DNA of 64,000 bases from Acidobacteriaceae bacterium (lineage in GTDB: Bacteria > Acidobacteriota > Terriglobia > Terriglobales > Acidobacteriaceae), in NCBI GenBank assembly GCA_003134815.1, contig PLCO01000006.1:1-64000 (forward strand). The letters are read 5' to 3'. Within the stretch, counting starts at the first letter, position 1. Each line of letters begins with the position of its first letter. Below, in pieces: positions 7,894 through 56,772 of the stretch. Made by a program: the position numbers and the translations under genes. A model generated the notes under the pieces. It was not told where the DNA came from and made no database searches. It saw only the letters and a program-made list of their open reading frames with translations.

Positions 7894-7906
7894 AACTTTT
7901 GCATAC
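7887..7906. promoter_or_regulatory. Palindromic operator candidate (TGCAAA-CT-TTTGCA)
   Basis: GTGTGCAAA-CT-TTTGCATAC is an inverted repeat with a perfect 6-bp inner core and eight of nine arm positions matching. It overlaps the -12 part of the sigma-54-like element. TGCAAAC also occurs 22 bases upstream. The arrangement would suit repression or autoregulation. Confidence 0.4.
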
Positions 7907-8059
7907 ATGGGCCTCTATCCGTAGAAACATCCTGCCAGGTGTCTGATTAAATACCAAAGAATCAATAAGAAACGATAGTATCGAACGATTCTGTCGAGAC
8001 TCAGTTATGGCCCCAGTCGTGCAGTGCTAAGGATAGTTTCTCCTCAGTTTCCGAGGCCT

Positions 8060-9100: not shown

Positions 9101-9263
9101 TAGATGCGAATGAAAGGTTCACCAACAGATCTGGCTTGAGCGGACGGGGATGGGCGAGGAATATCAAGGGCGGCTGCTGATCTGGAAGTTGCTGGAGCAT
9201 TGGCGGACAGCATTGGTTGACGGAAGCGCTGAGTCATTACCTGCGGTGTCTTGAAAGTGTTAC

Positions 9264-10953: not shown

Positions 10954-10963
10954 GGGGCAGCTT

Positions 10964-21221: not shown

Positions 21222-21288
21222 GTCGACCCGTACAGGGCACGTGGTATTTCAAACTATTTCGGATGCATTTGAGGAGCAGGGACGCAAC

Positions 21289-22185
21289 ATGATGATTTGC
21301 GGCAGGGAAATTCGGGTCGAAGGTGGTCTGGTTCGAATTGCCCGGCTCGATGGCGACAAATACAAATTCCTGGAAGCTCCGGAGCCGGCAGTGGAAGGCT
21401 TGCGGAAATCTCAGGAGCGAGTTGACATTTTTACTTTCATGCAAAAGCTTCCTGATACAGTTCCCAAATATAACTATCCGATGGAATGGGATAACCTGGC
21501 TGTTCTCGGGATCTCTACATTTGACGAGTGGTGGATGAACCGTCTCGGCTTTAAAGCAAGAAACAAAGCGAAGCAGGCCGCCAAAAAGGGAGTGACCGTT
21601 CAGGAATCGCCGTTTGACGAGGCCTTCGCGCAGGGAATCTGGGAGATTTACAACGAAAGTCCTGTGCGGCAGGGCAGGCGCTTTCCGCACTACGGTAAGA
21701 CCCTTGACCAGGTACGCCGAATGAGCGGTACGTTTCCTGATACGAGCATCTTCATCGGCGCGTACTTCGAAGAAAAGCTAATCGGTTTTATCAAACTTAC
21801 GACCGATGACAGCGGGACCCAGGCCGGAATGATGCACATTGTTTCGATGATCCGGCACAGGGATAAAGCGCCGACCAATGCACTCGTTGCACAAGCAGTG
21901 CGGTCGTGTGCGGATCGGGGAATATCGCATCTCGTCTATTCGAACTTCGCTTACGGGAAGAAGGAGCGCAGCAGCCTGAGCGATTTCAAGGAGCGCAACG
22001 GCTTTGAGCGGGTTAACTTGCCGCGCTACTATGTCCCACTTACGAGTATTGGTTGGGCCGCCTTCCGGCTGGGATTGCACCACAAACTTATTGACCGCCT
22101 TCCCGGACCGCTGCTGGCAAAGGCCCGCGATCTTCGATATTCGTGGTACAAACATCGGTTCCCGGCTTTGGAGCAGGACTCATAA
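21289..22185 (+). CDS. FemAB/GNAT-like acyltransferase-fold protein
   Basis: This protein of about 298 residues belongs to a family often met in EPS loci. The N-terminal part (VEGGLVRIARLDGDKYKFLEAPEPAVE, then DIFTFMQKLPDT) is characteristic. The C-terminal two thirds look like an acyl-CoA N-acyltransferase fold (FIGAYFEEKLIGFIKLTTDD, MMHIVSMIRHRDKAPTNALV, FKERNGFERVNLPRYYVPL). It may acylate or aminoacylate a sugar amine in the repeat unit; no member I know has a proven function. The ATG at 21289 is preferred (GGGA six bases upstream, start at the conserved region); a GTG at 21241 would add 16 residues. It is followed 13 bases later by the asparagine-synthase homologue, so the two may act together. 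Confidence 0.7.
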   Translation: MMICGREIRVEGGLVRIARLDGDKYKFLEAPEPAVEGLRKSQERVDIFTFMQKLPDTVPKYNYPMEWDNLAVLGISTFDEWWMNRLGFKARNKAKQAAKKGVTVQESPFDEAFAQGIWEIYNESPVRQGRRFPHYGKTLDQVRRMSGTFPDTSIFIGAYFEEKLIGFIKLTTDDSGTQAGMMHIVSMIRHRDKAPTNALVAQAVRSCADRGISHLVYSNFAYGKKERSSLSDFKERNGFERVNLPRYYVPLTSIGWAAFRLGLHHKLIDRLPGPLLAKARDLRYSWYKHRFPALEQDS

Positions 22186-29037: not shown

Positions 29038-30351
29038 GTGAGAATCAGCGTTTTCGGAATGGGCTACGTGGGAACAGTGTGCGCCGGGTGCCTCGCGCAC
29101 GCCGGTCACGAGGTCATCGGCGTCGATCCCGTTCGCGCAAAGGTCGATTTAATCAATGCAGGCAAGTCTCCGATCATCGAAACTGATATAGAGGAGATCA
29201 TTAGTGCAGCGGTCAAGTCAGGGAAACTCCGCGCGACCGGCGATCAAGATGTGGCGATTAGCGAGACCGAGCTCTCGCTTGTTTGTGTTGGCACTCCGAG
29301 CCAAGTCAATGGAAACTTGGATCTGACCTATATTCGGCGTGTGTGCGAACTGATCGGTGAAGCGCTCAAGAATAAACCTGCTCGTCACACCGTGGTGATC
29401 CGCAGCACAATCCTACCCGGTACGATGCATCAGATGGTTATTCCTCTTCTTGAAGAGCACTCCGGGAAAAAGGCTGGTGTTGATTTCGGTGTCTGTAATA
29501 ATCCCGAATTCCTGCGGGAAGGTTCCGCTGTCAAAGACTTTAATGCTCCCCCCAAAACTGTGATTGGAGAGTTGGACCAGGAAAGTGGCGACATTCTGGC
29601 AGGGCTCTACGCCGATCTGAAGGCCCCATTGATCCGCACAAATATAAAAACTGCGGAGATGGTAAAGTATGTTGACAACTGCTGGCATGCGCTCAAGATT
29701 GGCTTCGCAAACGAGATCGGAAATCTTTGCAAATCCTTATCCATCGATTCGCACGAAGTGATGGATATCTTCTGCCAGGATAAGAAACTCAACATCTCAA
29801 CGGCGTATTTGAAGCCTGGCTTTGCCTTCGGCGGTTCTTGCCTGCCAAAGGATCTTCGAGCCTTGACCTATAAGGCCAAGACGCATGATCTTCAGTTGCC
29901 GATCATATCCTCCATTCTTGCGAGCAATGAATTACAAGTTAGTCGTGGACTGCAACTCATCATGGACAAGGGCTCTAAACGGGTTGGGGTCTTGGGCTTC
30001 AGCTTTAAGGCCGGTACCGACGATCTTCGCGAAAGCCCGATGATCGAAGTCATCGAACGCCTGATCGGCAAGGGCTATGACCTGCGTATCTTCGATAGAA
30101 ATGTGAATCTGGCCAGGCTGGTTGGCGCAAATAAGGATTTCATCCTCAATCGCATCCCGCACATATCCAGGCTAATGGTCGACGGCATTGACGCGATTAT
30201 GGCGCATGCCGAAACTGTGGTGATTGGCAACAACGATCCGGCCTTTCAGCAAGTTCCTGAGCTGCTGCGTGACGGCCAGCGCCTGGTGGACTTTGTTCGA
30301 ATCGCGGATTCTAGGAGTGAAAATGGGAAATATGACGGCATTAGCTGGTAA
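29038..30351 (+). CDS. algD: GDP-mannose 6-dehydrogenase
   Basis: A 437-residue NAD-dependent four-electron dehydrogenase making GDP-mannuronic acid. It closely follows Pseudomonas AlgD throughout: MRISVFGMGYVGTVCAGCLA, SGKKAGVDFGVCNNPEFLRE, and GFAFGGSCLPKDLRALTY with the catalytic Cys at position 268, as in AlgD. LGFSFKAGTDDLRESP follows, and even the ending ..GISW corresponds to AlgD's GICW. The length is within one residue of AlgD. No other alginate genes (alg8, alg44, algG) are present in the window, so mannuronate, or a derivative, is probably one sugar of a heteropolymer. Start GTG with GAGAGGGAAG upstream. It overlaps the next gene by 29 bases. Confidence 0.92.
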   Translation: MRISVFGMGYVGTVCAGCLAHAGHEVIGVDPVRAKVDLINAGKSPIIETDIEEIISAAVKSGKLRATGDQDVAISETELSLVCVGTPSQVNGNLDLTYIRRVCELIGEALKNKPARHTVVIRSTILPGTMHQMVIPLLEEHSGKKAGVDFGVCNNPEFLREGSAVKDFNAPPKTVIGELDQESGDILAGLYADLKAPLIRTNIKTAEMVKYVDNCWHALKIGFANEIGNLCKSLSIDSHEVMDIFCQDKKLNISTAYLKPGFAFGGSCLPKDLRALTYKAKTHDLQLPIISSILASNELQVSRGLQLIMDKGSKRVGVLGFSFKAGTDDLRESPMIEVIERLIGKGYDLRIFDRNVNLARLVGANKDFILNRIPHISRLMVDGIDAIMAHAETVVIGNNDPAFQQVPELLRDGQRLVDFVRIADSRSENGKYDGISW

Positions 30352-31546
30352 GACAACTAATATTGACGTCGCGAATAGGGCGCAAAGCGGGGAGATCTTC
30401 GCGTCTATTGGACGCCTGGCTGACTGGTTGGAGCGAAATGATTATCGGGGATACGACACATTCGATGGCCTAAACGCAAAGTTTCTTCGTCCCCTGACGT
30501 TCGAGACGAAGCCGCTACGTATCTTATTGCAGCAGGGAGTACGGCGTTTTCCTTTGAACCTTCGCCCTCTTCTTGGAATAAAAAAGAGCCGTTCCACTAA
30601 GGGAATGGGCTTTTTGGCGCGCGGCTTTATGCGTCTTAATCAGGCAACCGGTGATGCGATTTGGAACGACAAGGCAGAGGCAGCGTTGCAATGGCTGATT
30701 GAAAATCAGTCGCCGGGCTACAGCGGGGCGTGTTGGGGAAACCATTTCGATTATCAGTCGCGAAGTAGTTATGTAAGTAAGAACATCCCTTCCATAGTGT
30801 GGACCTCGCTTATTGGGCACGCGTTTCTCGATGCTTATGAACAGTTTCATCGAGAGAGTTATTTGCAGGTGGCTGTCAGTGCGTGCGAACACATCGAACG
30901 GGATCTTGGCGTTGTTGTCACGGGAGAGACTCATTGCCTCAATTACTTCCCCATCACGAAGCATGAGGTCCACAATGCCAACACGCTTGGGGCGAGCTTT
31001 TTGGCTCGTACGTGCGCAATCACCGGCAATAAGTCGTACCTTTCGCTGGCCGAGAAGGCAATTGAATACACGGCTAATTATCAGAGAAAAGATTTCTCCT
31101 GGTATTACGGAGAAGCCAGCAACCTGCACTGGGTGGATAATTTTCATACCGGGTATGTGTTGGATTCGTTCAAGTATTACCAGGAAAGCACAGGCGATGA
31201 CCGCTTCGATAAGAAAATGATGAATGGATACGAGTACTGGAAGGATACGTTCTTCCTACCCGATGGCACTCCCAGATACTACGACCGCAAGACTCTGCCG
31301 TTAGATATTCAGTGCTCGTCGCAGGCGATAGACACGCTGACCTTCTTTTCTGATCGAGATCCGGACAGCTTGTCGCTGGCGCTCAAGGTAGCCAAATGGA
31401 CGATTGAAAACATGCAGGATCGTAGCGGGTATTTTTATTATCGAAGGTACTCGCGGTCGATTGTCAACAAGACACCGACTTTGCACTGGGGCCAGGCAAC
31501 AATGCTTTGCGCTTTGGCGGGACTGTACAAGGCGCTGGAGCAATGA
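30323..31546 (+). CDS. Alpha/alpha-toroid polysaccharide-modifying protein
   Basis: A 407-residue protein with repeated helix-hairpin units typical of the (alpha/alpha)6 toroid (LARGFMRLNQATGDAIWNDKAEAALQWL; ANTLGASFLARTCAITGNKSYLSLAEKAIEY; HTGYVLDSFKYYQESTGDDRF). Conserved aromatic/acidic patches (CWGNHFDYQSR, WYYGEASNLHWVDNFHTGY) suggest a sugar-binding groove. It has no signal peptide. The nearest ideas are the D-glucuronyl C5-epimerase C-terminal domain or six-hairpin glycosidase/lyase folds; which one I cannot say. The start inside the end of algD (AGGAG five bases before the ATG at 30323) implies translational coupling, so a role on mannuronate-containing chains or precursors is tempting. 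Confidence 0.72.
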   Translation: MGNMTALAGKTTNIDVANRAQSGEIFASIGRLADWLERNDYRGYDTFDGLNAKFLRPLTFETKPLRILLQQGVRRFPLNLRPLLGIKKSRSTKGMGFLARGFMRLNQATGDAIWNDKAEAALQWLIENQSPGYSGACWGNHFDYQSRSSYVSKNIPSIVWTSLIGHAFLDAYEQFHRESYLQVAVSACEHIERDLGVVVTGETHCLNYFPITKHEVHNANTLGASFLARTCAITGNKSYLSLAEKAIEYTANYQRKDFSWYYGEASNLHWVDNFHTGYVLDSFKYYQESTGDDRFDKKMMNGYEYWKDTFFLPDGTPRYYDRKTLPLDIQCSSQAIDTLTFFSDRDPDSLSLALKVAKWTIENMQDRSGYFYYRRYSRSIVNKTPTLHWGQATMLCALAGLYKALEQ

Positions 31547-31621: not shown

Positions 31622-33376
31622 ATGAAGCTCATTGAAGCACTGGAGATCGCGCGCCGCCCGGTTGCGGAATCAGCTTCGAAGGTGAGGGCCTTTCTGGCTT
31701 GCGGGTTTACGCCGCTCCATTTGCAGACCTTTATTACTGGGCATTTGCGCGCACTGCAAGAGGAGACGCGAGTTGAGTTCTCGGTCGGACTATTCGGTGA
31801 CTTGTGCGGAAGCCTGGAGCGTCTGGATCCTTCGATTGTCGATCTGCTTGTCGTGGTCATTGAGTGGAGTGATATTGATCCCCGCCTCGGGCTTCGGACT
31901 CTTGGGGGTTGGCGACCCTCAGATATGGTGGGAATTCTCGAATCTGCTCAAACAGCAGTTGCTCGCTTGGAACAGGCACTGACAAAAGCCGCGGGACAAA
32001 TCCCGGCGACAGTAGTCTGCATGCCTTCCCTTCCGCTGCCGCCGATGTTCTCGACTCGGCCGCTTCAGGCGGGCTTGGTCGAAGCCGAGTTGCAGCACAC
32101 AGTGGCCGGACTGGCGGCATCGGCGTCCCGGTTGCCCGGTGTTCGCATGCTGAGCGCACAGCGACTCGCGGAAGCTTCTCCACCATCGGACCGATATGAT
32201 GTGAAATCTGATGTGACGACGGGATTTCCATATACTCTTCGCCACGCATCCGTCATGGGAGAACTCCTCGCCGAACTGATTCGGAATCGGCCGCCCATGA
32301 AGGGACTCATTACTGACCTTGATGACACGCTATGGGCTGGAATCGTTGGAGAGGACGGAGTTGAGGAAATCTCCTGGCATCTTGATCGTAAAACGCAGAT
32401 GCATGGTGTCTACCAACAGTTTGTTGCGTCTTTGGCGGGTGCAGGCATTTTAATCGGGGTTGCGAGCAAGAACGATGCATCTGTGGTTGCGCGTGCCTTC
32501 GAGCGGAAAGATCTGTTGCTGTCCGCCCGTGATGTTTTTCCAATCGAGACGCACTGGTCTCGTAAGTCGGAGTCAGTGCGACGAATTCTCAAGACCTGGA
32601 ACGTCGGGGCCGATTCGGTGGTCTTCGTGGATGACAGCCCCATGGAAGTTGCCGAAGTGAAGGCGGAGTTCCCCGCAATGGAATGCGTGGTCTTCCCAAA
32701 GGACGACAACCAGGGCATGCTCGATCTCTTGAAACACCTGCGCGATGTTTTCGGCAAGCCTTCCGTCACCGGGGACGATAAGCTTCGCCTGGACAGCATT
32801 CGCAGTGCGAGTGCATGGCGGCAAGATTCGATCAAGTCCGCTGGCAGCTTCTCTGAGGATGCGCTCCTCCGCGCCGCCGAGGGTTCCCTCGTTTTCAGTC
32901 TGGCGCGGGAAGGAGACGCGAGATCTTTTGAGTTGGTCAACAAAACCAATCAGTTCAACCTCAATGGCAAGCGCTTTAGTGAGTTTGAATGGCGAAGAAC
33001 TGCGAGCAATCCTGCCGCCTTTGTGCTTTCCGTATCTTACAAGGACAAATACGGACCGCTGGGCACGATCGCTGTGGTCGTGGGCGCAGCCAATGGCCAC
33101 ACAGTTGAAGTAAGCGCCTGGGTGATGAGCTGCCGCGCATTTTCGCGCCGGATTGAGTTCCACTGTTTGCAGTACATCTTTGATAGATTTGCGGCTTCTG
33201 AAATTGTTCTTGACCTGCAAGCGACAGACCGCAATGGGGTGATCGTCGAATTCCTTGATCAACTGCTGGACGAGCCTGCCGAACCAAATCCACGGCTAGC
33301 GAAGGCCTCCTTTTTGAAGAAGGCTCCCGAATTGCCCCACCAGATTGAGGAGGTTTCTGTTTGTGAACAACGATGA
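31622..33376 (+). CDS. FkbH-like HAD-family acyl loader
   Basis: A 584-residue protein of the FkbH family. Members take a glyceryl group from 1,3-bisphosphoglycerate and load it on the phosphopantetheine of an acyl carrier protein. The N-terminal region (1-220) is the family's SGNH-like extension. The HAD core has motif I DLDDTLW (Asp232, Asp234), ASKN in motif II, and FVDDSPMEV in motif III. The C-terminal GNAT-like domain (about 400-560) has NKTNQFNLNGKRFSE and YKDKYGPLGTIAVV, both hallmarks. The next gene encodes an ACP and begins before this one ends, so they form a loading pair. This is unusual in an EPS locus and points to an acyl decoration. Confidence 0.9.
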   Translation: MKLIEALEIARRPVAESASKVRAFLACGFTPLHLQTFITGHLRALQEETRVEFSVGLFGDLCGSLERLDPSIVDLLVVVIEWSDIDPRLGLRTLGGWRPSDMVGILESAQTAVARLEQALTKAAGQIPATVVCMPSLPLPPMFSTRPLQAGLVEAELQHTVAGLAASASRLPGVRMLSAQRLAEASPPSDRYDVKSDVTTGFPYTLRHASVMGELLAELIRNRPPMKGLITDLDDTLWAGIVGEDGVEEISWHLDRKTQMHGVYQQFVASLAGAGILIGVASKNDASVVARAFERKDLLLSARDVFPIETHWSRKSESVRRILKTWNVGADSVVFVDDSPMEVAEVKAEFPAMECVVFPKDDNQGMLDLLKHLRDVFGKPSVTGDDKLRLDSIRSASAWRQDSIKSAGSFSEDALLRAAEGSLVFSLAREGDARSFELVNKTNQFNLNGKRFSEFEWRRTASNPAAFVLSVSYKDKYGPLGTIAVVVGAANGHTVEVSAWVMSCRAFSRRIEFHCLQYIFDRFAASEIVLDLQATDRNGVIVEFLDQLLDEPAEPNPRLAKASFLKKAPELPHQIEEVSVCEQR

Positions 33377-33596
33377 CGACCGCTTGATGAATTGCTTCCT
33401 GACAATCTTTCCCGGTACGACTCGCGACGAGATTAAAGGATCTAAATTCGAAGACCTTCCCGGCTGGGACTCACTGCGGGGAGTAACGCTTCTTGCCGTC
33501 TTGGACGACGAATTCGGTGTGCAGATGGACATGGATGAGCTGTTGGAATTGGGGACGTTTGACGCCATAGAGAGGCAATTTGCCAGGGCCCGCTGA
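33363..33596 (+). CDS. Acyl carrier protein
   Basis: A 77-residue ACP/PCP-like protein. The phosphopantetheine attachment serine lies in GWDSLRGVTLLAVLDDEFG (consensus DSL), with helix IV at the C-terminus (FDAIERQFARA). The GTG at 33363 is preferred: AGGAGG precedes it by nine bases. The gene overlaps the 3' end of the FkbH-like gene by 14 bases, indicating coupled expression. Its likely cargo is a glyceryl or hydroxyacyl group loaded by FkbH, and the following dehydratase/reductase may process it. No phosphopantetheinyl transferase gene is seen in the window. Confidence 0.82.
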   Translation: MNNDDDRLMNCFLTIFPGTTRDEIKGSKFEDLPGWDSLRGVTLLAVLDDEFGVQMDMDELLELGTFDAIERQFARAR

Positions 33597-33600
33597 TGCA

Positions 33601-35049
33601 GTGGAAGAGAAGGAATTGACGAGGCTCGCGCAGCGAATCTTCGGGCCGGCTGACCAAAGACAATTTGCTTCTGTCTCCGGCGACCAGAACCCGATCCATG
33701 TTGACGCCCTCTCCGCGCGACGCACACAAGGGGGCGCGCCGGTGGTGCACGGGATCAACCTGCTGCTTTGGTCGTTCGACTCTCTCGCTTCAGCGTTGTT
33801 AGATCTGCCCCCGTTGCGCAGCTTTAGCGCCAAGTTCAGCAGATTTGTCTATCTGGGCGAACAGGTTGAACTGAGATTGGTTCAGCAAGAGCCACACTGC
33901 TCACGATTAAGTTTTTCCGTCGACAACGACATTCGGTCGGAAATCGCGATTGAATTTGGAGACCCCGAGCGGCATTTACCGCCGTGGGTAGACCGTTCTC
34001 TGGCGCCTCAATCTCCTGCTTCGGCCGCATTGGATCCGAGTCTGGAACAGATCGCGGAACGCGGTGGCAACCTTGCATTCTGCATGACGACCGAGCAAGC
34101 AGCGACTCTGTTTCCGTCCGCGGCAAGATGGCTCGGCGTTCGGCGCATTATGTCACTGGCGGCCAGCTCGTACCTGGTGGGAATGGTTTGCCCTGGTTTG
34201 CACTCCCTCTATAGCGAACTATCGATCGAGACCTGCCCTGATTCAGATGCTCTGGATTTCCTGGCTTACCGGGTGAGCAAGACTTATCCGCGCTTGCGCT
34301 TGGTTAAACAAGAGATTGCAGGCGGTGGAATTACGGGAACGGTAACGTGCTTTGTTCGCACTCCACCGGCACAGCAAGCGACGATGGAGAGCCTGGCCGG
34401 GCTGGTCGATCCGGCAGAGTTCACTGGGAGCGTGGCGCTGATTGTGGGGGGATCGCGCGGATTAGGTGAGCTGACCGCCAAACTGATCGCCACGGGCGGC
34501 GGGCGCGTCCTGATTACCTGGCAAAGTGGAAGCGAAGATGCGGAAAGGGTCGCCAGGGAGATTCGTTCGGCAGGCGGTGCGTGCGCGACGCTTGCCTACG
34601 ACGCTCAAAAGCCGGCCGAAGAGCAACTTGCCGGATTGGCGCATGTCCCTACGCACGCATACTATTTCGCGACGCCACCTATCTTTCGTTCTCAAGCGGA
34701 ACTTTTTTCAAGAGAGCGACTCAAGGAGTTTCTCGCAATATACGTGGAAGGTTTCTGGCAGTTATCGCAGGCACTTCGCGCTCGTTGTCCCGAGCTATCA
34801 ATGTTTTACCCATCTTCGGTTGCCGTCGCGGAGCGCCCGCGTGGAATGACCGAATACTCCATGGCCAAAGCTGCCGGAGAGATACTATGTGCCGATATGA
34901 ATGTATCCTTGGCTCCGATGCGTGTAATTGCAGTCCGTTTGCCACGGCTGCCCACGGACCAGACTGCCTCCGTCACCGCAGCGAAATTCGCTGATCCGGT
35001 GGATACGATGTTGCCGATCGTGAGGGAGGTACAGTCTTGGCCGAGGTAA
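33601..35049 (+). CDS. Fused MaoC-type dehydratase and SDR reductase
   Basis: A protein of about 482 residues. Residues 1-115 form a hotdog MaoC-like (R)-hydratase domain with the catalytic signature SGDQNPIHVDALSARRTQGG and VVHGINLLL. A middle segment (about 130-260) may be a second, degenerate hotdog. Residues about 268-480 are a short-chain dehydrogenase with VALIVGGSRGLGE cofactor loop (GGXXXGXG) and catalytic YSMAKAAGE (Tyr/Lys). Together with FkbH and ACP this looks like a small acyl-thioester modifying unit that reduces or dehydrates an ACP-bound acyl group. Start uncertain: the GTG at 33601 is preferred, TTG at 33580 possible. Confidence 0.8.
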   Translation: MEEKELTRLAQRIFGPADQRQFASVSGDQNPIHVDALSARRTQGGAPVVHGINLLLWSFDSLASALLDLPPLRSFSAKFSRFVYLGEQVELRLVQQEPHCSRLSFSVDNDIRSEIAIEFGDPERHLPPWVDRSLAPQSPASAALDPSLEQIAERGGNLAFCMTTEQAATLFPSAARWLGVRRIMSLAASSYLVGMVCPGLHSLYSELSIETCPDSDALDFLAYRVSKTYPRLRLVKQEIAGGGITGTVTCFVRTPPAQQATMESLAGLVDPAEFTGSVALIVGGSRGLGELTAKLIATGGGRVLITWQSGSEDAERVAREIRSAGGACATLAYDAQKPAEEQLAGLAHVPTHAYYFATPPIFRSQAELFSRERLKEFLAIYVEGFWQLSQALRARCPELSMFYPSSVAVAERPRGMTEYSMAKAAGEILCADMNVSLAPMRVIAVRLPRLPTDQTASVTAAKFADPVDTMLPIVREVQSWPR

Positions 35050-35164
35050 TTGGCGCGCCTTCGAGCCTTTTCCATCCGTCGACGTCATGCGCCAGGGTCT
35101 TCCCGGGATTGCATACCTCGCGGCAGAGAAGACGCGTACACGTGCAAGGGAGAATGGCACACGA

Positions 35165-35707
35165 ATGAAGGAAAATCTGCTACGGGGATTCTTGAATAGA
35201 ATCCTTCAAACGCTCGCTACGAATTTTCCGGGCGGGCAGAATCTGCGTGTTTCACTGCACCGCGCGCGCGGGGTAAAGATCGGCAAGAATGTTTGGATTA
35301 GCTATAACGTTATCCTCGAGACATCCTACCCTTCTCTGGTCACGATTGACGACGACGCGTTTATCGGGATTGGCGTCATTGTCATTGCCCACTTCAAAGA
35401 AGCGCGCAACGGTGTACGGATCGGTAAACGTGTCTTCGTGGGACCGGGGGCGATCATTCTTCCGGATGTGGAAATCGGTGACGGCGCCGTGGTCACGGCG
35501 GGGAGCGTAGTTACGAACTCGGTGCCTGCAATGACAGTGGTCCAGGGCAACCCTGCAGTCCCCATCGCGACGTGCGGTGTGCCTCTCTGGCCGGACACTC
35601 CTTTGAAGGAGTTCTCCAGGCGGCTCAGGCCGCTGGCTTCCCGCGGGTCGAGTCAAAGAGGGATCGCCGTGGAGCAGGGCGGACCGGAATCACTGAAGGG
35701 ATCTTGA
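35165..35707 (+). CDS. LbH (hexapeptide-repeat) acyltransferase
   Basis: This protein of about 180 residues has hexapeptide repeats forming a left-handed beta-helix (GKNVWISYNVILE, IGIGVIVIAHFKEARNGVRIGKRVFVGPGAIILPDVEIGDGAVVTAGSVVT). The C-terminal PAMTVVQGNPAV is the usual end of WbbJ/CysE-type acetyltransferases. It probably puts an acetyl or other acyl group on a sugar of the polymer. Following FkbH, ACP and the MaoC-SDR protein, it may use ACP-bound acyl groups, which is speculative. The ATG at 35165 is the best start, though its ribosome site is weak. The last 30 residues are unconserved and overlap the start region of the next gene. Confidence 0.78.
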   Translation: MKENLLRGFLNRILQTLATNFPGGQNLRVSLHRARGVKIGKNVWISYNVILETSYPSLVTIDDDAFIGIGVIVIAHFKEARNGVRIGKRVFVGPGAIILPDVEIGDGAVVTAGSVVTNSVPAMTVVQGNPAVPIATCGVPLWPDTPLKEFSRRLRPLASRGSSQRGIAVEQGGPESLKGS

Positions 35708-35709
35708 GC

Positions 35710-37491
35710 TTGAAACTGATTGTGCCGTACATCGGCAAACTGAAGGATCTTGACGCTCGAATTGTAAAGCTCGCTGAGTTTCTGGGCATTTCTTGCGCAA
35801 GCGTCGCACTAGCGCCCGCAATCGATCACGCAGACTTCTTGAAAAAGTCAGTGCCCGATGAGTGTTCCTGTTTCGCGGCTAACCCCGCAGTGCTGAAAGA
35901 CTGGCTAGGGTCGCACATATCGGACGAGCTTGTTGCCTTCCTTCTTTCCCGCTTTACACACCTCTTGGTGTACGGCCTGCGCGGGGATGCATTCGACGCC
36001 GAACTGATTTCAGCCTTATCGAAGGGAAGGGTGAAATCAGTCGAGCCTATCGACGGAGAGAATTCCGTCTATACAATCGCCGAGGATTCCAAAGATGTCT
36101 GCGAAGCATTTGCGGGCCTTTCGTTTGGTCCGGTGAACCCTGTCAACGATCATGTTCTTTCGCCGAGCAACGATGGGCACTGCGTTCGCTCAATTATTTC
36201 GATTGCCGGTCGGCCCATGATGGCGTCGTTGAAAAGCGACCAATGCACCATCTGGTTGCTGGCTGGTGCCGACGTTGTTGACATAGATGCCGAGGCCGGA
36301 GACGAGCCTTTGTCGAAGTATTTTTCCCGCTTTCTTCCCCATGCGATGGCGCTGCGCGCCATCTTTGGCGAAGAAAGCTGGCGCCCCGGTGAACAACACG
36401 CTTCAGTCATCATCGACGATCCTTTGCTGCAGAGCAGCTACGGGTTTTTGAACTTCGAATCGCTTCTCGGGCTGATGAAGGAACACAATTTCTCCACTAC
36501 GATTGCGTTCATCCCATACAACTACAGGCGAAGCGCAACGAAAATTGCGCGCCTGTTCCGTGACAATTGTGACCGCTTCTCGCTTTGCTTTCACGGCAAC
36601 GACCACATGGATGCGGAGTTCGCGTCCGACGATACAGCCAGGTTAAACACTATGCTCCAAATCGCGGAGCGACGAATGAACTTGCATAAGCAGATAACCG
36701 GGGTTGGTTGCGACCGCGTGATGGTTTTTCCGCAAGGGAAATTTTCAGTCCCGGCCATGGCCGTGCTCAAATCGCGGAACTTCCTGGCCGCCGTAAATAC
36801 TGTCCCTAAGCCCAGAAATAGCGATGCTCGTCTTAGCTTCGCCGAGATTGCGCAGCCAGCTGTCCTGCGCTACGGCAGCTTCCCGCTGTTCCTTCGTAAG
36901 GACTGTCTCCATACGCAAAGTGCGGACATTGCATTCAACTGTTTCTTCGGAAGGCCCGTTCTGATCGTAGAGCATCACGACATTCTCCGAAACTCTCAAA
37001 TTCTTGCCGACGCTGCAACTAGAATCAATATGGTTGCGTCGGCGATACGTTGGTCGAATCTTGCCACTGCTGTGAGCGGATCGCTTCTCGCCCGGAGAAC
37101 ATCGGAAGGTGTTCATCAAATCAGGGCTTATTCAGGTACTGTGCGGGTTCATAACGACTCGGGAGCAGTCAAACGCTGCTCAGTTGAGTGGAACTGGTCA
37201 GGTAAGCAGGAAAGTCTCGACGGTCACGTGCTTGAAGATGGTATGCCCAGCACAAGTTACGTTGCCGATAGCGCGGGTACTCAAGTCTTGGTAGACCTGC
37301 CGCCACATAGTTCGCGAACATTGTCTCTAACTCATCAGAATCTCTACGGCAGCCTCAAAAGCATCGGAATGCGGCAAAGTGCCAGAGCTTTCCTGCGCAG
37401 AAGGCTCTCGGAAGTTCGCGACAACTACCTCAGTAAGAGCCCGCGCGTCCTGGCTGCGGCCAAGACTCTGCAACAGCGTCTTCCACATTGA
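35710..37491 (+). CDS. NodB-like/polysaccharide-deacetylase-like protein, uncharacterised
   Basis: A protein of about 593 residues. The middle (about 240-420) has a pattern like the NodB homology domain: ASVIIDDPLLQSSYGFLNFESLLGLMKEHNFSTTIAFIPYNYRR (motif-1-like Asp pair) and LCFHGNDHMDAEF (His/Asp metal-site-like), followed by VMVFPQGKFSVPAM and a trailing RPVLIVEHHD. The N-terminal 200 residues and the C-terminal beta-rich region (HQIRAYSGTVRVHNDSG) match nothing I recognise. There is no signal peptide. A role in de-N-acetylating a lipid-linked or precursor sugar is possible. I chose the TTG at 35710 (AAGGGA eight bases upstream, immediately after the previous stop); other starts upstream in frame give no family resemblance. 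Confidence 0.6.
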   Translation: MKLIVPYIGKLKDLDARIVKLAEFLGISCASVALAPAIDHADFLKKSVPDECSCFAANPAVLKDWLGSHISDELVAFLLSRFTHLLVYGLRGDAFDAELISALSKGRVKSVEPIDGENSVYTIAEDSKDVCEAFAGLSFGPVNPVNDHVLSPSNDGHCVRSIISIAGRPMMASLKSDQCTIWLLAGADVVDIDAEAGDEPLSKYFSRFLPHAMALRAIFGEESWRPGEQHASVIIDDPLLQSSYGFLNFESLLGLMKEHNFSTTIAFIPYNYRRSATKIARLFRDNCDRFSLCFHGNDHMDAEFASDDTARLNTMLQIAERRMNLHKQITGVGCDRVMVFPQGKFSVPAMAVLKSRNFLAAVNTVPKPRNSDARLSFAEIAQPAVLRYGSFPLFLRKDCLHTQSADIAFNCFFGRPVLIVEHHDILRNSQILADAATRINMVASAIRWSNLATAVSGSLLARRTSEGVHQIRAYSGTVRVHNDSGAVKRCSVEWNWSGKQESLDGHVLEDGMPSTSYVADSAGTQVLVDLPPHSSRTLSLTHQNLYGSLKSIGMRQSARAFLRRRLSEVRDNYLSKSPRVLAAAKTLQQRLPH

Positions 37492-37546
37492 GAGAGGCAA
37501 CAGCAGTGCGTGTTTTCCGGATTCGACAAGCAACCAATTTACGCGG

Positions 37547-38785
37547 ATGTCTTCTGTGACCAAGAGAGTTCTCATTATCGTTGAGAATGATGCCGTTCCC
37601 TTTGATCCACGCGTGTGGAAGGAAGCGCTTGCCTTGCACGCGGCGGGCTACGAGGTCCGGGTCCTATCTCCAAAGGACAAAGGATATGAACGAGGCTATG
37701 AATTTCGGGACGGCATTCATATCTACAGGCACCCCATTCCCGAAGCAGGAGATAGCGCGCTAGGGTACGTCTGGGAATATGGATGCGCATTGTTTTGGGA
37801 GTTTCTGTACTCCTGGTGGATCTACCTGCGCCATGGCTTCGATGTTATCCAGGGCTGCAATCCGCCGGATGACATTTTCTTAGTCGCCTTGATGTTCAGA
37901 CCATTTGGGGTCAGATTCATCTTCGACCACCACGACGTGAACCCGGAGTTGTATCTTGCGAAATACGAGAGGAGAGATTTCTTCTATCGACTTCTGGGGT
38001 GGTTGGAAAAGATGACCTTCCGTTTCTGTGACGTGGCAATGTCGACAAACGAGAGTTACAAACAGATCGCCCTAACTCGAGGCGCCATGCAGGACGAAGA
38101 TGTATTTGTCGTCCGCAATGGGCCCGATCCAGAGATATTCAAGGCGGTTCCGCCAAATCCGGTGCACAGGCGCGGCAAGCGGTATCTGGTCGGCTATGTG
38201 GGCAACATGAGTACGCAGGATGGCTTGGACATTCTCCTTGATTCCGCGTTAGAGCTTAAAAAGCAGGGTCGTAATGATGTGCACTTCACCTGCGTCGGAG
38301 GCGGACCTGGACTGCCGAGCCTTCGCAAGATGACAGAGGAAATGAATCTTGGCGATATGGTGACATTCACCGGACGAATTCCCGACGCTGAATTGCTTGA
38401 GATCCTTTCAACCGCGGATGTTTGTGTCAATCCGGATCGGCCCTGCACGATGAATAGCATGTCCACCATGATCAAGATCATGGAATACATGACACTGGGC
38501 AAGCCGATTGTTCAATTCGAAGGCGTAGAAGGCAGGTTCAGCGCTCAAGGCTCCTCGCTATACAGCGATGGTGATGGCAACATAGCGCGGGATTTCGCCG
38601 ATAAGATCGCCTGGCTACTTGACCGGCCGGATGAGAGAAAGCAAATGGGCGAGCTCGGACACCGACGAGTCGAAGAGCAATTGGCGTGGGAGCATTCCGT
38701 TCCGAGTCTTCTGGCAGCCTATGAAAGGGCATTCAGCAAAGTGCGCGGAAAACGAGCGCTGCAGACTGACGTTGCCGGCTCGTGA
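37547..38785 (+). CDS. Family 4 (GT-B) glycosyltransferase
   Basis: A 412-residue GT-B transferase starting VLIIVENDAVPFDPRVWKEALAL, a common opening of GT4 enzymes in EPS loci. It has FDHHDVNPELYLAKY, donor-site pieces YLVGYVGNMSTQDGLDILL, VTFTGRIPDAELLEILSTADVCVNPD, and a nucleotide-sugar Glu region IMEYMTLGKPIVQFEGVEGRFS. The sugar is not known. The ATG at 37547 follows 55 bases after the deacetylase-like gene. Its stop overlaps the GTG of the next gene (GTGA), suggesting translational coupling to the acyltransferase that follows. Confidence 0.85.
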   Translation: MSSVTKRVLIIVENDAVPFDPRVWKEALALHAAGYEVRVLSPKDKGYERGYEFRDGIHIYRHPIPEAGDSALGYVWEYGCALFWEFLYSWWIYLRHGFDVIQGCNPPDDIFLVALMFRPFGVRFIFDHHDVNPELYLAKYERRDFFYRLLGWLEKMTFRFCDVAMSTNESYKQIALTRGAMQDEDVFVVRNGPDPEIFKAVPPNPVHRRGKRYLVGYVGNMSTQDGLDILLDSALELKKQGRNDVHFTCVGGGPGLPSLRKMTEEMNLGDMVTFTGRIPDAELLEILSTADVCVNPDRPCTMNSMSTMIKIMEYMTLGKPIVQFEGVEGRFSAQGSSLYSDGDGNIARDFADKIAWLLDRPDERKQMGELGHRRVEEQLAWEHSVPSLLAAYERAFSKVRGKRALQTDVAGS

Positions 38786-40725
38786 CGATGAAGCCGCCCA
38801 CCACCAGCTTGAAGTATCGGCCGGATATTGATGGTCTCAGGGCCGTCGCCGTTTTAAGCGTGCTTGCGTTTCATTTAGGTATTGCAAAAACGACGGGGGG
38901 GTTTGTTGGGGTTGATGTTTTCTTTGTTATCTCCGGCTACCTTATCAGCTCCATTGTCTTCTCTGAGATTGCGGCTTCACGGTTCTCGATAGTCGCCTTT
39001 TATGAGCGGCGCATTCGACGCATCTTTCCCGCTCTTTTCGCGATGTTGGCCGTATCTACGATTTTCGCGTTTGTTTATCTTTTCCCAAATGAACTTATCG
39101 ACTACAGTAAGTCGATGCTTGCGGCTACCGCTTCCGGTTCTAACTTCTATTTCTGGCGGCATTCCGGTTATTTCGATTCACCGACGTCTCAGCCGCTACT
39201 GCATACGTGGTCGCTGGCGGTGGAAGAGCAGTTCTATATCACATTTCCGCTCTTCCTTGTGTTTGTTCGCAGGCTCTTTCCAAGACGGCTAAAAGTTGCG
39301 GTGGTGATTCTGTTTTGTGTGTCTCTCGCGGCTAGTGTGATCGTCGTCTCGCGTAATGAGCAAACAGCGTTTTATATGCCTTACACCCGGGCATGGGAAC
39401 TCTTAGCGGGCACTATTCTTTCGTTGGAAATTATTCCGTACACAAAATCGGTATGGCTGCGAAACCTGGGGTCGTTTGCGGGCATCGCGCTCATTGCATA
39501 TTCAGTCGTGACTTATACGGAGCAAACGCGCTTTCCCGGCTTCAGCGCCTTGGCGCCATGTATTGGTTCAGCTCTCGTTATTTGGGTAGGGGGCTCCGGG
39601 TCCTCTCTGGTCGGTTCGGTACTGTCCTGGCGCCCAGTCGTCTTCATTGGGCTGATCTCCTACTCTCTCTATCTGTGGCACTGGCCCATCATCGTTTTGC
39701 GCCATATGGGGGTTCTTTTCGGCGTTGGTCTCGCCACTTCGCTGGGTCACGCGGCTCTGCTTTCCTCTCATCGGTTTGACATGGCGGCTGAGATCGCCAT
39801 TTCATTCGCCCTTGCGGTTCTCTCCTGGCGTTTTGTCGAGCGGCCATTCCGAATAGGTCGCATGCGCTTAAGCGGACGGCCGCTATTCGCGCTGGCCGGC
39901 GCGGCGATGCTAGTCTTTATCGTTGTTTCGTCCTGCACCATACTCGCTGGTGGATTTAAGGGGCGCTTTCCAGCCGACGCAGTCGCGATTGCGTCGGGCA
40001 TGGAGGGCAGTCAAGGGACGGGAACCGATCGGCTTGGGGTCTGCTTTATTCTCCCCGAGAATTCTTTTGAGAAATACAACCGCGATCTGTGTCTGCGGGA
40101 AGATAGTCACAAGAAGAATTATCTTTTGCTGGGCGATAGCCACTCCGCAATGCTTTGGTCGGCGCTCGAATCCTCTCTTCAGGATGCAAACGTGATGCAG
40201 GCGAGTGCCGCTGCATGCGAGCCATCTCTCAACCCCACAGGTACTCCCAGCTGCCGGCAGATGATGGCCTACATTTTTCAGACCTATCTGCCGACCCATC
40301 CGATCCAGGGCATGTTTGTTGTAGGGCGTTGGGAAGATAAAGATATGGATGCGCTTGGAGGAGTAATCGCCTGGGCCAGGCTGCGTGGGTTGCCAGTGAC
40401 GGTGATTGGTCCCGTGCCGGAGTACGATGGCCCTCTGCCCAGGCTGCTCGCCTACTCCATTGCCTGGAATCAGCCGGGCTTGGTCAGTCATCATCTCGTT
40501 CCGGGCGGTGCGTTGATGGATGCAAAGATGCAAAGCATGGCCGCCAACATCTGGCATGTGCCCTACATCTCGCTCTATCGTGAAATTTGCGGCGGACATG
40601 GCTGTGCGGAATTTGCCGATGCCGCACATACGGTGCCAATGATGGGCGATACAGACCACCTTACAAAGTTAGGCGCTCTTGTCGTTGTTCGGGACCTCGT
40701 GGCAAAGGGAGAATTGAGCGAGTAG
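38782..40725 (+). CDS. OafA-type membrane O-acyltransferase fused to an SGNH domain
   Basis: A 647-residue protein. Residues 1-360 form a polytopic acyltransferase-3 domain (YRPDIDGLRAVAVLSVLAFHLG with the catalytic His, GFVGVDVFFVISGYLISSI, YERRIRRIFPALF). A periplasmic SGNH hydrolase-like domain follows, with YLLLGDSHSAMLW (Ser of block I) and DTDHLTKLGA (Asp-X2-His of the C-terminal block). This architecture O-acetylates surface polysaccharides on the periplasmic side. The GTG start overlaps the previous stop by four bases; an ATG at 38788 is an alternative. A seven-G run (38895-38901) lies in the early coding part. Confidence 0.9.
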   Translation: MTMKPPTTSLKYRPDIDGLRAVAVLSVLAFHLGIAKTTGGFVGVDVFFVISGYLISSIVFSEIAASRFSIVAFYERRIRRIFPALFAMLAVSTIFAFVYLFPNELIDYSKSMLAATASGSNFYFWRHSGYFDSPTSQPLLHTWSLAVEEQFYITFPLFLVFVRRLFPRRLKVAVVILFCVSLAASVIVVSRNEQTAFYMPYTRAWELLAGTILSLEIIPYTKSVWLRNLGSFAGIALIAYSVVTYTEQTRFPGFSALAPCIGSALVIWVGGSGSSLVGSVLSWRPVVFIGLISYSLYLWHWPIIVLRHMGVLFGVGLATSLGHAALLSSHRFDMAAEIAISFALAVLSWRFVERPFRIGRMRLSGRPLFALAGAAMLVFIVVSSCTILAGGFKGRFPADAVAIASGMEGSQGTGTDRLGVCFILPENSFEKYNRDLCLREDSHKKNYLLLGDSHSAMLWSALESSLQDANVMQASAAACEPSLNPTGTPSCRQMMAYIFQTYLPTHPIQGMFVVGRWEDKDMDALGGVIAWARLRGLPVTVIGPVPEYDGPLPRLLAYSIAWNQPGLVSHHLVPGGALMDAKMQSMAANIWHVPYISLYREICGGHGCAEFADAAHTVPMMGDTDHLTKLGALVVVRDLVAKGELSE

Positions 40726-42020: not shown

Positions 42021-44501
42021 ATGACGTATTCTCGTTATCTCTTGTCCGCCCTTCTTTGGACATCGCTTTCATGCGCCGTCGTCGCTTCCGCGCAGCAGCC
42101 CTGGTCCGGCGTCATCGCGCCGGCACGGGCAACCAGCTGGACGCAGGCAGGCCTTCCCGGCGACGTACCTCCTGACGGCTCATGGGCGCAATGTGGGTCA
42201 ACGATTTCGGCCTACGGCTCCAGCGGTTCTTATGCTTCGCCGACCACAATCCAGAACACGATCAATGCCTGTGGAAACGATCAGTACGTGTTGCTCGGCC
42301 CCGGGGATTTTTATCTTTCAAGTGGAGTCAATCTCCGCAGCAACGTTGTACTGCGTGGCACAGGCGCGAACCAGACTCGCATACACGTCAGCGCTGCAGC
42401 GGGATGCAATGGGCAGGGCGCCGTTGTTTGCATTGTGGGAGGCGTTACATATGCCGGGTATTGTCTGCCCAACAACGTCAACACGTGGAACTGTCCACAG
42501 CTGGGATTCACTCCGGGCTACCCGGATTCGGCGAACTGGACTGGGAGCTATTCTCAGGGAGCAACGACGATCACCCTCGATAATGTGACGGGCATCGTAA
42601 CCAATTTGACGCCCATCGTGCTCGATCAATGCGATACGGGTTTGAGTGGAAGTTCGGGGGTCGAGAACTGCAACGGCGGTTCGGGTGGCGTAGTCACCGC
42701 CGCCTCCGTTTACAGCGGCAGTGGAGGAAGTGGGTATAACGTTGGCGACACGGGAAAGATCAACTGCGTGTGGGACTGGGGGCGATGCTATGGGTCGGGA
42801 ACTGCGACCTATAGTGTGACCGCCGTGAGCGGTGGGGCGGTGACAGCGTTCACCGTCACCAATGGAGGGAGTGGCTACACGTATACCAACGTCAACACGT
42901 ACTTTGGCGCTCCTACCATGACAACTGCCACGAGCGGAGGCGGCTCCGCCTTCGAAGTTCAAGTCACGGGAATCAGCGCGTACGACAACAACGGGTTCTT
43001 CGTTTGCGCCATCTCGTCGATTTGTTCTATCACAGCTGATTCCGGAAGCGTCCGCGTTGGTCGTTCCCAGGAAGAGGTTGTTCTTGCTGAATCCATCACC
43101 GGCAGCGGCCCGTACACAGTGACCCTCAACCACCCGTTAATGCATCCGAACTGGACCGCGGGCCAGTCTCCGCAAGCCTGGTGGGGAACTTCAACGATCA
43201 CGAATTCGGGAGTTGAAAACGTGCTGATTGATGTCAGCGCTGTCAGTTCTTCGTGCGTTTCCATCAATGCAGCCGCCTATGTGTGGGTCAAGGGAATTGC
43301 CTGTAATACCGCGAATTTTTTCCATGTGTACGCCTATGTGGCATCAAATTTTTTGGTTCGGGACAGCTACTTCTACTGGACGAAGAACGCGGGCACAACA
43401 AGCTACGGAATTGGCTCAGGCGGACAAGTGGGGAACTCGCTGTTTGAGAACAATATTTTACAGGGGATCGTTGATCCGCTAAATGTGAACGGACCCTGCA
43501 CAGGATGCGTTTTTGCCTATAACTTCTCAGTCAATCAGTACGATGGGGCTTCTAACGTCATGTTTGCATCGTCTCCCATGCACTCAGCAGCAACAGACTA
43601 CATTCTTGAGGAAGGCAATATCGGGTCCGCTGCATATCAAGACAACACGCACGGCCCGCACCTCGCTGACACCTTCTTTCGCAATTATTTCACTGGGTAC
43701 GAAACAAACAACGGTTCGTCGACGAACAATGCCACAATACCAGTAACCGTGGGAGCATTCTCGCGGTACAACAATTATCTGGGGAACGTGCTGGGCACAG
43801 CGGGCTATCACACGATCTACCAGTGTATCCCTGGATCAAGCTCGACCCGGTTTTGCGCTGTCGACGCCGGTTCATTCCCTGGATATGTTCACATCTGGGA
43901 TTTGGGGTTTTCTGCTCAGGCGCAGAGCGACTTCAGCAACACTCCGGCGGAGCCGAACGACCTGCTGACCTCAACTTCGCTGTACCGCTACGGCAATTAC
44001 GACGTCGTGAACGGATCGGTACAGTGGAACTCGAGCGAGGTTCCGACCACCGACCCGAACTTCCCCAATCCTGTGCCAGCGAGCAACACATTCTCGGCGT
44101 CCTTCTACAACGGTGTGACTGCCGCTTACCTGAGCTGTGGAACTGGTCTGTCGTTCTGGATGAACCCGACGACCGGAACCTGCCCGCCCTATCCCAGCAT
44201 CGGCCCTGATGTCAGGCATGGAGACATTGGGCTGTGTACCAGTGGGACTTACCAGTGGTCTCGCGCGCTCACCAGCAATCAATGCGCCGGCGGTAGCTTC
44301 AACGCATCGGTCAACGGCGGGTATGGAAACTCCAATCCAGCAATGCGTTGCTATTTCAATCAGATGGGCGGGCTACCGGACGGAACCGGCGGTATGCTCT
44401 CCTTTAATCCGGCAAGCTGCTATGCGACAGACAGTGCGGGGACAATCGTGCATCCGTCTGCTGTAAACACCCTGACTGGGTCATACTCAATTATCTTGTG
44501 A
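42021..44501 (+). CDS. Secreted right-handed beta-helix protein (pectate-lyase-superfamily-like)
   Basis: An 826-residue exported protein with a signal peptide (LLSALLWTSLSCAVVASAQ, cleavage near 25). The N-terminal part (TIQNTINACGNDQYVLLGPGDFYLSSGVNLRSNVVLRGTG) is the typical entrance of a parallel beta-helix. Two GSGYT-type repeats follow in a Gly/Ser-rich insert (about 225-300), then long beta-helix coils (VWVKGIACNTANFFHVYAYVASNFLVRDSYFYW). No lyase catalytic residues can be named. It could be a polysaccharide lyase, epimerase-like protein or a secreted binding protein acting on the exported polymer. The gap upstream holds its own possible promoter. Confidence 0.75.
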   Translation: MTYSRYLLSALLWTSLSCAVVASAQQPWSGVIAPARATSWTQAGLPGDVPPDGSWAQCGSTISAYGSSGSYASPTTIQNTINACGNDQYVLLGPGDFYLSSGVNLRSNVVLRGTGANQTRIHVSAAAGCNGQGAVVCIVGGVTYAGYCLPNNVNTWNCPQLGFTPGYPDSANWTGSYSQGATTITLDNVTGIVTNLTPIVLDQCDTGLSGSSGVENCNGGSGGVVTAASVYSGSGGSGYNVGDTGKINCVWDWGRCYGSGTATYSVTAVSGGAVTAFTVTNGGSGYTYTNVNTYFGAPTMTTATSGGGSAFEVQVTGISAYDNNGFFVCAISSICSITADSGSVRVGRSQEEVVLAESITGSGPYTVTLNHPLMHPNWTAGQSPQAWWGTSTITNSGVENVLIDVSAVSSSCVSINAAAYVWVKGIACNTANFFHVYAYVASNFLVRDSYFYWTKNAGTTSYGIGSGGQVGNSLFENNILQGIVDPLNVNGPCTGCVFAYNFSVNQYDGASNVMFASSPMHSAATDYILEEGNIGSAAYQDNTHGPHLADTFFRNYFTGYETNNGSSTNNATIPVTVGAFSRYNNYLGNVLGTAGYHTIYQCIPGSSSTRFCAVDAGSFPGYVHIWDLGFSAQAQSDFSNTPAEPNDLLTSTSLYRYGNYDVVNGSVQWNSSEVPTTDPNFPNPVPASNTFSASFYNGVTAAYLSCGTGLSFWMNPTTGTCPPYPSIGPDVRHGDIGLCTSGTYQWSRALTSNQCAGGSFNASVNGGYGNSNPAMRCYFNQMGGLPDGTGGMLSFNPASCYATDSAGTIVHPSAVNTLTGSYSIIL

Positions 44502-56115: not shown

Positions 56116-56772
56116 ATGATCGCTTCGGAACTCCCCATCATCATAATTGGAGGCGGCGGTCACGCTAAAGTGTTGCTGAGCGCTCTCCAACTGACTGAGC
56201 AAAAGGTTCTAGGATTCGTCGACCTGAAACTCTCGCTTCCTCCTTTACTGGGAGTCCGGCATCTCGGCGATGATAGTGCGGCATTTACCCATGCGCCTGA
56301 TGGCGTAAGGCTCGTGAATGGTGTCGGCTCAATCAGTTCCACCGTAAATCGCCAGGCCGTCTACGATCGGTTCGCCCAGAAGCATTATTGTTTCGCGAGG
56401 GTGATCCATCCCTCGGCTGTGGTTGCGCCTGAAGTGCAAATTGACGAAGGGGTCCAAATCATGGCGGGGGCGGTGGTGCAGGCAGGCAGCCGACTCGGTG
56501 CAAATGCCATCGTTAACACGGGGGCTCGCGTCGACCACGACTGCATCATTGATGCTCACGCGCACATTGCGCCAGGTGTGACAATATGCGGCGGAGTGAG
56601 CGTCGGTGCCGGCGCACACATTGGAGCCGGCGCCACTGTAATCCAGGGCATTCACATTGGTAAGGGCAGCGTAGTTGGAGCGGGCGCGCTCGTAATTCGG
56701 GACGTACCGCCGGGAACTAAGGTAGTCGGCATTCCAGCTACTTCAATATCGGAGCGAAGGACAGCGCGATAG
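56116..56772 (+). CDS. neuD: NeuD/PglD-like sugar N/O-acetyltransferase
   Basis: A 218-residue acetyltransferase. A small Rossmann-like N-terminal domain (PIIIIGGGGHAKVLLSALQL) is followed by a left-handed beta-helix (VIHPSAVVAPEVQIDEGVQIMAGAVVQAGSRLGANAIVNTGARVDHDCIIDAHAHIAPGVTICGGVSVGAGAHIGAG) with the catalytic His in VDHDC. Enzymes of this type acetylate an amine or hydroxyl of a nonulosonate or its precursor. The end (VPPGTKVVGIPA) is the family end. It starts eight bases after neuB. Confidence 0.85.
   Translation: MIASELPIIIIGGGGHAKVLLSALQLTEQKVLGFVDLKLSLPPLLGVRHLGDDSAAFTHAPDGVRLVNGVGSISSTVNRQAVYDRFAQKHYCFARVIHPSAVVAPEVQIDEGVQIMAGAVVQAGSRLGANAIVNTGARVDHDCIIDAHAHIAPGVTICGGVSVGAGAHIGAGATVIQGIHIGKGSVVGAGALVIRDVPPGTKVVGIPATSISERRTAR

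Follow-up and report, generated by a model that had tools for sequence, protein, structure and literature searches.

The window analysed here spans the initial 64 kb of contig C58 (98 kb) in the draft genome (4.18 Mb, 96% complete) of an Acidobacteriaceae bacterium, and our subject is a compact run of forward-strand genes within it. These encode an FkbH-type loader, a stand-alone acyl carrier protein (ACP), a fusion of MaoC and SDR domains (MaoC-SDR), a hexapeptide (LbH) acyltransferase and a deacetylase-like protein. The original prediction, made from the letters alone, had listed the first four amid sugar genes. Their coordinates hold, as do the 14-base overlap between the FkbH and ACP genes and the 4-base gap between the ACP stop and the MaoC-SDR start, and Pfam assignments of the neighbouring genes tested agree that the quartet lies in a polysaccharide locus. 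Left out at the time was the deacetylase-like gene at 35710-37491, which probably belongs to the unit and extends it past position 35707.

The first gene (31622-33376, +) encodes a 584-residue HAD-IIIC protein that belongs to the FkbH-type glyceryl loaders of TIGR01686, scoring 212.8 bits against a cut-off of 146.65. In an alignment of 36 FkbH proteins, which includes L030, a duplicate of L017 (loci, genomes and contigs carry our own L, G and C numbers), the HAD residues Asp232 and Asp234 are kept in 36/36, and Lys315, Asp337, Asp338 and Cys504, the last in an SCR motif, in all 35 sequences with letters at the site; we take their catalytic roles to be those usual in the family. The 77-residue ACP (33363-33596, +, GTG start at 33363) matches PF00550 with 25.6 bits (cut-off 20.8) over profile positions 28-64 of 67 only and carries its serine in the sequence GWDSL, so that score and DSL motif, on a partial profile, place it in the family. 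A second FkbH-domain protein is present in the same genome (G000:C57:42889-43824; L008 9776-12097), in a 779-residue frame with 211.5 bits, on a contig with no PP-binding match. As described in two papers, FkbH proteins load glyceryl from 1,3-bisphosphoglycerate onto carrier proteins (PMC8949500, PMC7489565).

The MaoC-SDR protein (33601-35049, +; 482 residues, GTG start at 33601) combines Pfam matches to PF01575 (5e-12), adh_short (2e-9) and KR (6e-7). The secondary structure of its AlphaFold 2 model (mean pLDDT 93.7) suggests a catalytic hotdog followed by a second hotdog-like part, a reading with no structural hit behind it, and the Rossmann-fold SDR part aligns to solved SDRs with a VIA Z of about 25 over about 210 residues, the VIA list for this model spanning its SDR half only. 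Asp28 and His33, as expected of an R-specific hydratase or dehydratase, are invariant in 33 of 33 distinct full-length fusions; Ser405 and Lys423 are equally invariant and Tyr419 is kept in 90% or more, which gives the SDR half its Ser-Tyr-Lys set. These are presumably the catalytic residues of the two families.

The LbH gene (35165-35707, +; Hexapep 3e-12) lies in a reading frame that opens at 35087, and the start at 35165 fits the alignment with its relatives better; His76 is invariant in 7/7. A search of 297 phylum genomes for this type of LbH gave matches in six others, and in all six the relative is tied, by adjacency or fusion, to an ACP or a loader. The arrangements in the six are ACP-FkbH-LbH-deacetylase (L157), a single protein with AMP-binding, PP-binding and Hexapep domains (L158, by Pfam) and LbH-ACP-AMP-ligase (L159, L160, L184 and L185; the ligases of L159 and L160 by Pfam, the other calls of this arrangement by a custom ACP profile and by eye). 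A further locus, L172, has FkbH-LbH-deacetylase with a weak ACP match of 17.4 bits. Given this association of its relatives with carrier proteins or loaders, the LbH is likely to be the transferase of the acyl group, in keeping with its earlier designation as a sugar acyltransferase. As neighbours, the operons of L159 and L160 have, by eye, a gene resembling NAD synthases and one for a small protein whose tail is PEP-CTERM-like.

The fifth gene (35710-37491, +; 593 residues, TTG start likely) has no Pfam match at 0.01 and reaches 13.1 bits (E 0.096) against Polysacc_deac_1, below the cut-off of 23.1, as a distant relative rather than a member of that family; a sequence search of the PDB returned nothing up to E 1. 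Its AlphaFold 2 model (mean pLDDT 84.9) points to a NodB/CE4-like carbohydrate N-deacetylase. The top five Foldseek hits are NDST1 (three rows), Agd3 and ArnD, at query TM-scores of 0.27-0.49, and VIA-align gives a Mycobacterium smegmatis polysaccharide deacetylase (Z 15.0, root mean square deviation 3.6, 224 residues), NDST1 (Z 13.8, 6.4, 398 residues) and Agd3 (Z 12.7, 5.5, 433 residues). Many CE4 entries in this list support the CE4/NodB-like fold, and a few non-deacetylases score as high (among them 8qpg, Z 13.6, and 1k1x, Z 13.2). Asp236, Asp237, His295, His299 and His422 are invariant in 10/10 sequences, and Asp237, His295 and His299 make up the metal-binding Asp-His-His set, which we assign to the NodB motifs. 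A simple hydropathy scan shows no transmembrane (TM)-like segment. We read the protein as a putative cytoplasmic carbohydrate N-deacetylase.

Relatives of this gene occur in 10 of 396 phylum genomes, window included. That of L157 (26.6% identity over 379 residues, E 1e-22) also lies directly after an LbH gene, and FkbH and LbH stand alongside both there (ACP 26.4 bits) and in L172. Elsewhere the company differs: L179 has an ACP, an SDR-like match and an LbH with no FkbH, and L173 and L177 each have a protein that resembles FkbH weakly (about 191 and 215 bits, custom profile) and no LbH of the window's kind. The versions in L175-L178 are about 75-105 residues longer than the window's, and by eye both their termini carry hydrophobic stretches, absent from those of the window, L157, L172, L173 and L179.

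To survey how the first three genes travel together, we aligned four MaoC-SDR sequences and scanned genome contigs with the alignment. This gave 266 loci, and the MaoC-SDR counts below refer to the best 80, a sample that contains related species (for example, three or more Methylobacterium), to which we added the window and three loci from a search of the phylum, where MaoC-SDR matched in 5 of 297 genomes, once to the SDR half only. The set holds 34 full-length fusions, 33 of them distinct after L030 was dropped as lying on the same contig as L017; the other 50 rows are the large fusions L050-L052, L053, L048 and 45 controls. Profiles for ACP, MBOAT, the GNAT-like family, KAS III, deacetylase and LbH derive from the loci under study themselves. 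Pfam, applied to individual members only, gave no match for the ACP of L160, the ACP-like protein of L026 or the L042 and L053 GNAT-like proteins, and one slightly under the cut-off for the ACP of L159; weak ACP matches in L036, L044 and L172 rest on the custom profile.

FkbH lies within 8 kb of MaoC-SDR in 29 of the 33 distinct loci (28/32 without the window) and ACP in 27 of 33. Because none of the 45 control loci (L055-L099), which carry MaoC or SDR matches of other kinds, has an FkbH, a chance neighbourhood of the two genes is ruled out, and FkbH, ACP and MaoC-SDR form a conserved core.

The core recurs in several physical forms. Three planctomycete proteins of about 3200-3300 residues (L050 596-10258, L051 9941-19645 and L052 2421-12326) carry MaoC-SDR and FkbH at their N termini. 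By Pfam that of L052 is a 3301-residue polyketide synthase, in the order MaoC, SDR, FkbH (custom profile), ACP motif, ketosynthase (KS), acyltransferase, ketoreductase, two ACP motifs and GNAT, and in L050 and L051 the parts tested (MaoC-SDR, FkbH and ACP motifs) are spaced in the same way. Separate genes replace the fusion in L187, where FkbH-ACP is followed directly by MaoC and a gene that by eye looks SDR-like, and in L143, where MaoC and SDR (Pfam) follow FkbH-ACP, a 365-residue gene and MBOAT; L053 pairs a short MaoC with ACP and FkbH. The one plasmid record matched by MaoC-SDR, from Niveispirillum (NZ_CP025615.1), has HAD-IIIC (FkbH), ACP, a WcbI-family putative acetyltransferase and MaoC-SDR, and its ACP gene, too, overlaps FkbH by 14 bases. 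The distance matrices of MaoC-SDR and FkbH correlate over 29 loci (r = 0.43, reached by none of 5000 permutations), a value to which we attach little weight because it is uncorrected for species relatedness and the pair from the window is discordant.

The acyltransferase, by comparison, looks interchangeable among loci, with WcbI, MBOAT, GNAT-like and other LbH proteins in its place. MBOAT lies within 8 kb in 9 of the 33 MaoC-SDR loci (cut by the contig end in L018 and L021), a GNAT-like family with a polysaccharide deacetylase in 5 of 33 (the GNAT-like match weak in L049), and KAS III with a NeuD-type LbH in 4 of 33 (L026, L029, L032 and L047). Other LbH proteins near FkbH and MaoC-SDR occur in L026, L029, L031, L032 and L047, with an ACP detected in L031 and L047. 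These two are looser quartets, L047 with a NeuD-type LbH plus KAS III and L031 with a distant LbH 5.8 kb off. When genomes were searched for the proposed four-gene order, its parts recurred, and no other locus joined FkbH, ACP and MaoC-SDR to an LbH of the window's kind; a fully conserved four-gene operon is therefore rejected.

From gene content, residues, linkage and fusions, we consider it about an even prospect that 31622-37491 works as one cytoplasmic pathway decorating an amino sugar of the exopolysaccharide with a three-carbon (C3) acyl group. By family analogy, FkbH would take 1,3-bisphosphoglycerate from glycolysis, strip its phosphates and place glyceryl on the phosphopantetheine arm of the ACP. 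MaoC-SDR would act on the carrier-bound C3 unit: its MaoC part could dehydrate 2,3-dihydroxypropionyl to an enol-pyruvyl or pyruvyl form, and reduction would yield lactyl-ACP, the most economical route given that the locus has no ketosynthase. The CE4-like enzyme would deacetylate an N-acetylated amino sugar, and the freed amine would receive the acyl group from the ACP by way of the LbH, as in the cooperation of NodB, NodA and NodF; that the genes for deacetylase and transferase adjoin suggests that an amino sugar is acylated on its nitrogen. We infer the substrate, the acyl identity, the acceptor and an amide rather than an ester linkage. Of the original idea, the linkage, the fusions and the lack of a polyketide synthase support the carrier-dependent building of a small acyl group by FkbH, ACP and MaoC-SDR. 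On this last point the original prediction was right within the range searched: ketoacyl-synt and ACP_syn_III found no polyketide synthase in the 96% complete draft (nonribosomal peptide synthetase (NRPS) genes were not searched for). Their matches are a 420-residue frame next to an ACP on C1 and a weak one in a 395-residue frame on C27 for ketoacyl-synt, and contigs C5 and C66 for ACP_syn_III, with none of either kind on the window's contig; PP-binding matches include frames of 883 and 947 residues on C5 and C35.

Several observations weigh against this pathway. That a MaoC enzyme would convert glyceryl into lactyl is put forward on chemical reasoning, and a report on the oocydin synthase judged a DH-MT-FkbH-ACP module there to be non-functional (PMC4552970). 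Four of the 33 loci have no FkbH within 8 kb: L043, L045, L021 (one of whose flanks is 665 bases long) and L054 (whose locus ends in an FkbH fragment over 8 kb away). L048 (132.6 bits), probably a MaoC-SDR truncated where its contig ends and kept out of the controls, has none within the 10 kb covered, and counting it as a member gives 29/34. The window is itself a mosaic: its MaoC-SDR is 66% identical to that of a Granulicella locus (L020), but identity between the two FkbH proteins is about 22% across the profile and, in a BLAST alignment of 329 residues, 28.6%. An LbH of the window's kind is found in none of the other 32 MaoC-SDR loci, where the best matches score 34.8 bits (L031) and less against a self-score of 414.7, and four of the six genomes with LbH relatives (L159, L160, L184 and L185) are of one genus, which leaves three lineages. 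The fifth gene has no relative in any of the other MaoC-SDR loci; its relatives in L174, L175, L176, L178 and L179 have no FkbH match beside them, and the window-kind LbH is missing next to it in 6 of 9 other genomes, a count that leaves out LbH genes following a Gfo/Idh gene in L172, L174 and L177.

To these points belongs the company kept by the nearest relatives. L130 and L131, the closest to the window's FkbH (45%), have FkbH and ACP with no MaoC-SDR match, as do the LbH-deacetylase loci L157 and L172 with their FkbH and ACP (weak in L172), and in the phylum FkbH repeatedly occurs with MBOAT in loci that have no MaoC-SDR match, whether or not an ACP was detected (for example, L132, L134, L140 and L141). 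All would fit a transfer of glyceryl itself, with MaoC-SDR making a different, minor or unrelated product. For the window we think this unlikely, given that MaoC-SDR begins only 4 bases past the ACP, keeps its catalytic residues and is so strongly associated with FkbH (29/33 against 0/45); FkbH-ACP loci that have no MaoC-SDR may transfer glyceryl itself.

Quite improbable, in our view, is a longer acyl group, for which a remote ketosynthase (FabH or FabF) would extend a C2 or C3 starter and MaoC-SDR would carry out β-keto reduction and dehydration, giving, for example, a hydroxybutyryl- or crotonyl-type decoration. KAS III stands in the four MaoC-SDR loci named above, so MaoC-SDR may act on an elongated β-ketoacyl group there, a further point against the lactyl route. 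In L147 (G122), at 4027-9256, custom profiles place, one after another, a DegT aminotransferase, an ACP, an FkbH and a pair of KAS III-like frames, which we read as a variant with chain extension, and two studies report ACP and fatty acid synthase-type genes in flagellin glycosylation islands (PMC4875605, PMC7874193). Yet 29 of the 33 loci, the window among them, have no KAS III match within 8 kb, and the window's contig has none. Least probable of all is that the LbH is an ordinary WcaF-type acetyl-CoA O-acetyltransferase, with the neighbouring ACP pathway feeding the AT3-SGNH acyltransferase downstream (38782-40725) or a small metabolite: WcaF and further CoA-dependent acetyltransferases are among the nearest NCBIfam models, none of which reaches its cut-off, whereas close LbH relatives sit beside or are fused to an ACP, a loader or both in 6/6 genomes, though of only three lineages.

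Beyond the C3 pathway of the window, we suggest, with clear reserve, a widespread modular system in which 1,3-bisphosphoglycerate, taken directly from glycolysis, would be turned into C3-acyl-ACP without ATP-dependent acid activation and exchangeable acyltransferases (LbH, WcbI, MBOAT, GNAT-like) would decorate surface polysaccharides. The acyl group would be glyceryl or, in loci with MaoC and SDR, lactyl, and in the window an NDST-like N-deacetylase would lead to N-lactyl or N-glyceryl amino sugars. Native gellan carries glyceryl groups, and bryostatin and oxazolomycin have lactyl starters.

Nod factor synthesis, one of the closest known systems, combines an N-deacetylase (NodB), an acyltransferase (NodA) and a dedicated ACP (NodF), and the window has all three kinds of component. 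Its predicted acyl group is C3 rather than fatty acyl, however, its deacetylase has an NDST1/Agd3-like build and the transferase beside its ACP is an LbH rather than a NodA, so the comparison concerns only how the two would work. D-Alanylation by DltA, DltC, DltB and DltD likewise uses a carrier-bound small acyl group, and sister loci of the window pair FkbH-ACP with MBOAT (the 9 of 33 MaoC-SDR loci above); L020 adds to its MBOAT a sub-threshold SGNH/AlgX match. The FkbH route has no adenylation enzyme, and the MBOAT profile finds no match within the window, which is thus not Dlt-like itself. In the phylum, FkbH lies close to an MBOAT match in 8 of 20 profiled loci (L132, L133, L134, L140, L141, L143, L144 and L146); none of these has a MaoC-SDR fusion match, L143 having the separate MaoC and SDR, and a Dlt-like system with a glyceryl donor is possible there.

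Glyceryl loading by FkbH and ACP in polyketide and NRPS pathways (tetronates, methoxymalonyl-ACP, vioprolide) shares with the window the HAD residues and an adjacent stand-alone ACP (PMC7489565, PMC8949500); the window differs by its setting in an exopolysaccharide locus, the added MaoC-SDR and LbH, and the lack of a polyketide synthase match. A pathway tool has a table entry in which FkbH loading modules yield D-lactate-ACP (PMC7901079), and such modules, like the fusions L050-L052, unite MaoC-SDR, FkbH and ACP; in the window these are separate small proteins with no KS, and transfer would be to a sugar. The flagellin glycosylation islands resemble the window in having ACP and reductase genes within glycan loci, and in the main text of neither study do the words FkbH or MaoC appear (PMC4875605, PMC7874193). 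Our literature search, with most subscription papers outside its reach, found among the titles listed none on a polysaccharide acylated through FkbH, so that the window set would be carrier-protein-dependent glycan acylation in a form for which that search found no description. If this is true, loading chemistry of antibiotic assembly lines has moved into surface-polysaccharide biology, polymer decoration is linked to a glycolytic intermediate, and pairs of 'HAD-IIIC phosphatase + ACP' in polysaccharide loci gain a function. One would then expect small C3 acyl groups as decorations, which might be missed in routine compositional analysis, and the five-protein set is directly testable.

Around the set, Pfam identifies UDP-sugar dehydrogenases, a Gfo/Idh oxidoreductase, an LbH-DegT fusion, glycosyltransferases, a flippase-type protein, NeuB, a cytidylyltransferase, a NeuD-like LbH, DegT and one protein barely above the Wzy_C cut-off. 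Upstream lies a UDP-sugar dehydrogenase (29038-30351, +; TIGR03026, 415 bits). Downstream, a GT4 glycosyltransferase (37379-38785, +; Glyco_trans_1_4 6e-20), whose start is uncertain and whose frame overlaps the end of the deacetylase frame, is a possible maker of the acceptor, and the AT3-SGNH membrane acyltransferase (38782-40725, +; Acyl_transf_3 5e-29, SGNH 2e-20) has 8 TM-like segments in a hydropathy scan. Four long open reading frames of the window (10769-12328, 21241-22185, 42021-44501 and 56772-58175) have no Pfam match at 0.001, that at 21241-22185 none at 0.01 either. The gene directly before FkbH (30320-31546) has sub-threshold GH76 and C5-epimerase matches, and a relative of it (39.9% over 198 residues) lies in L160, one of the LbH-ACP-ligase loci.

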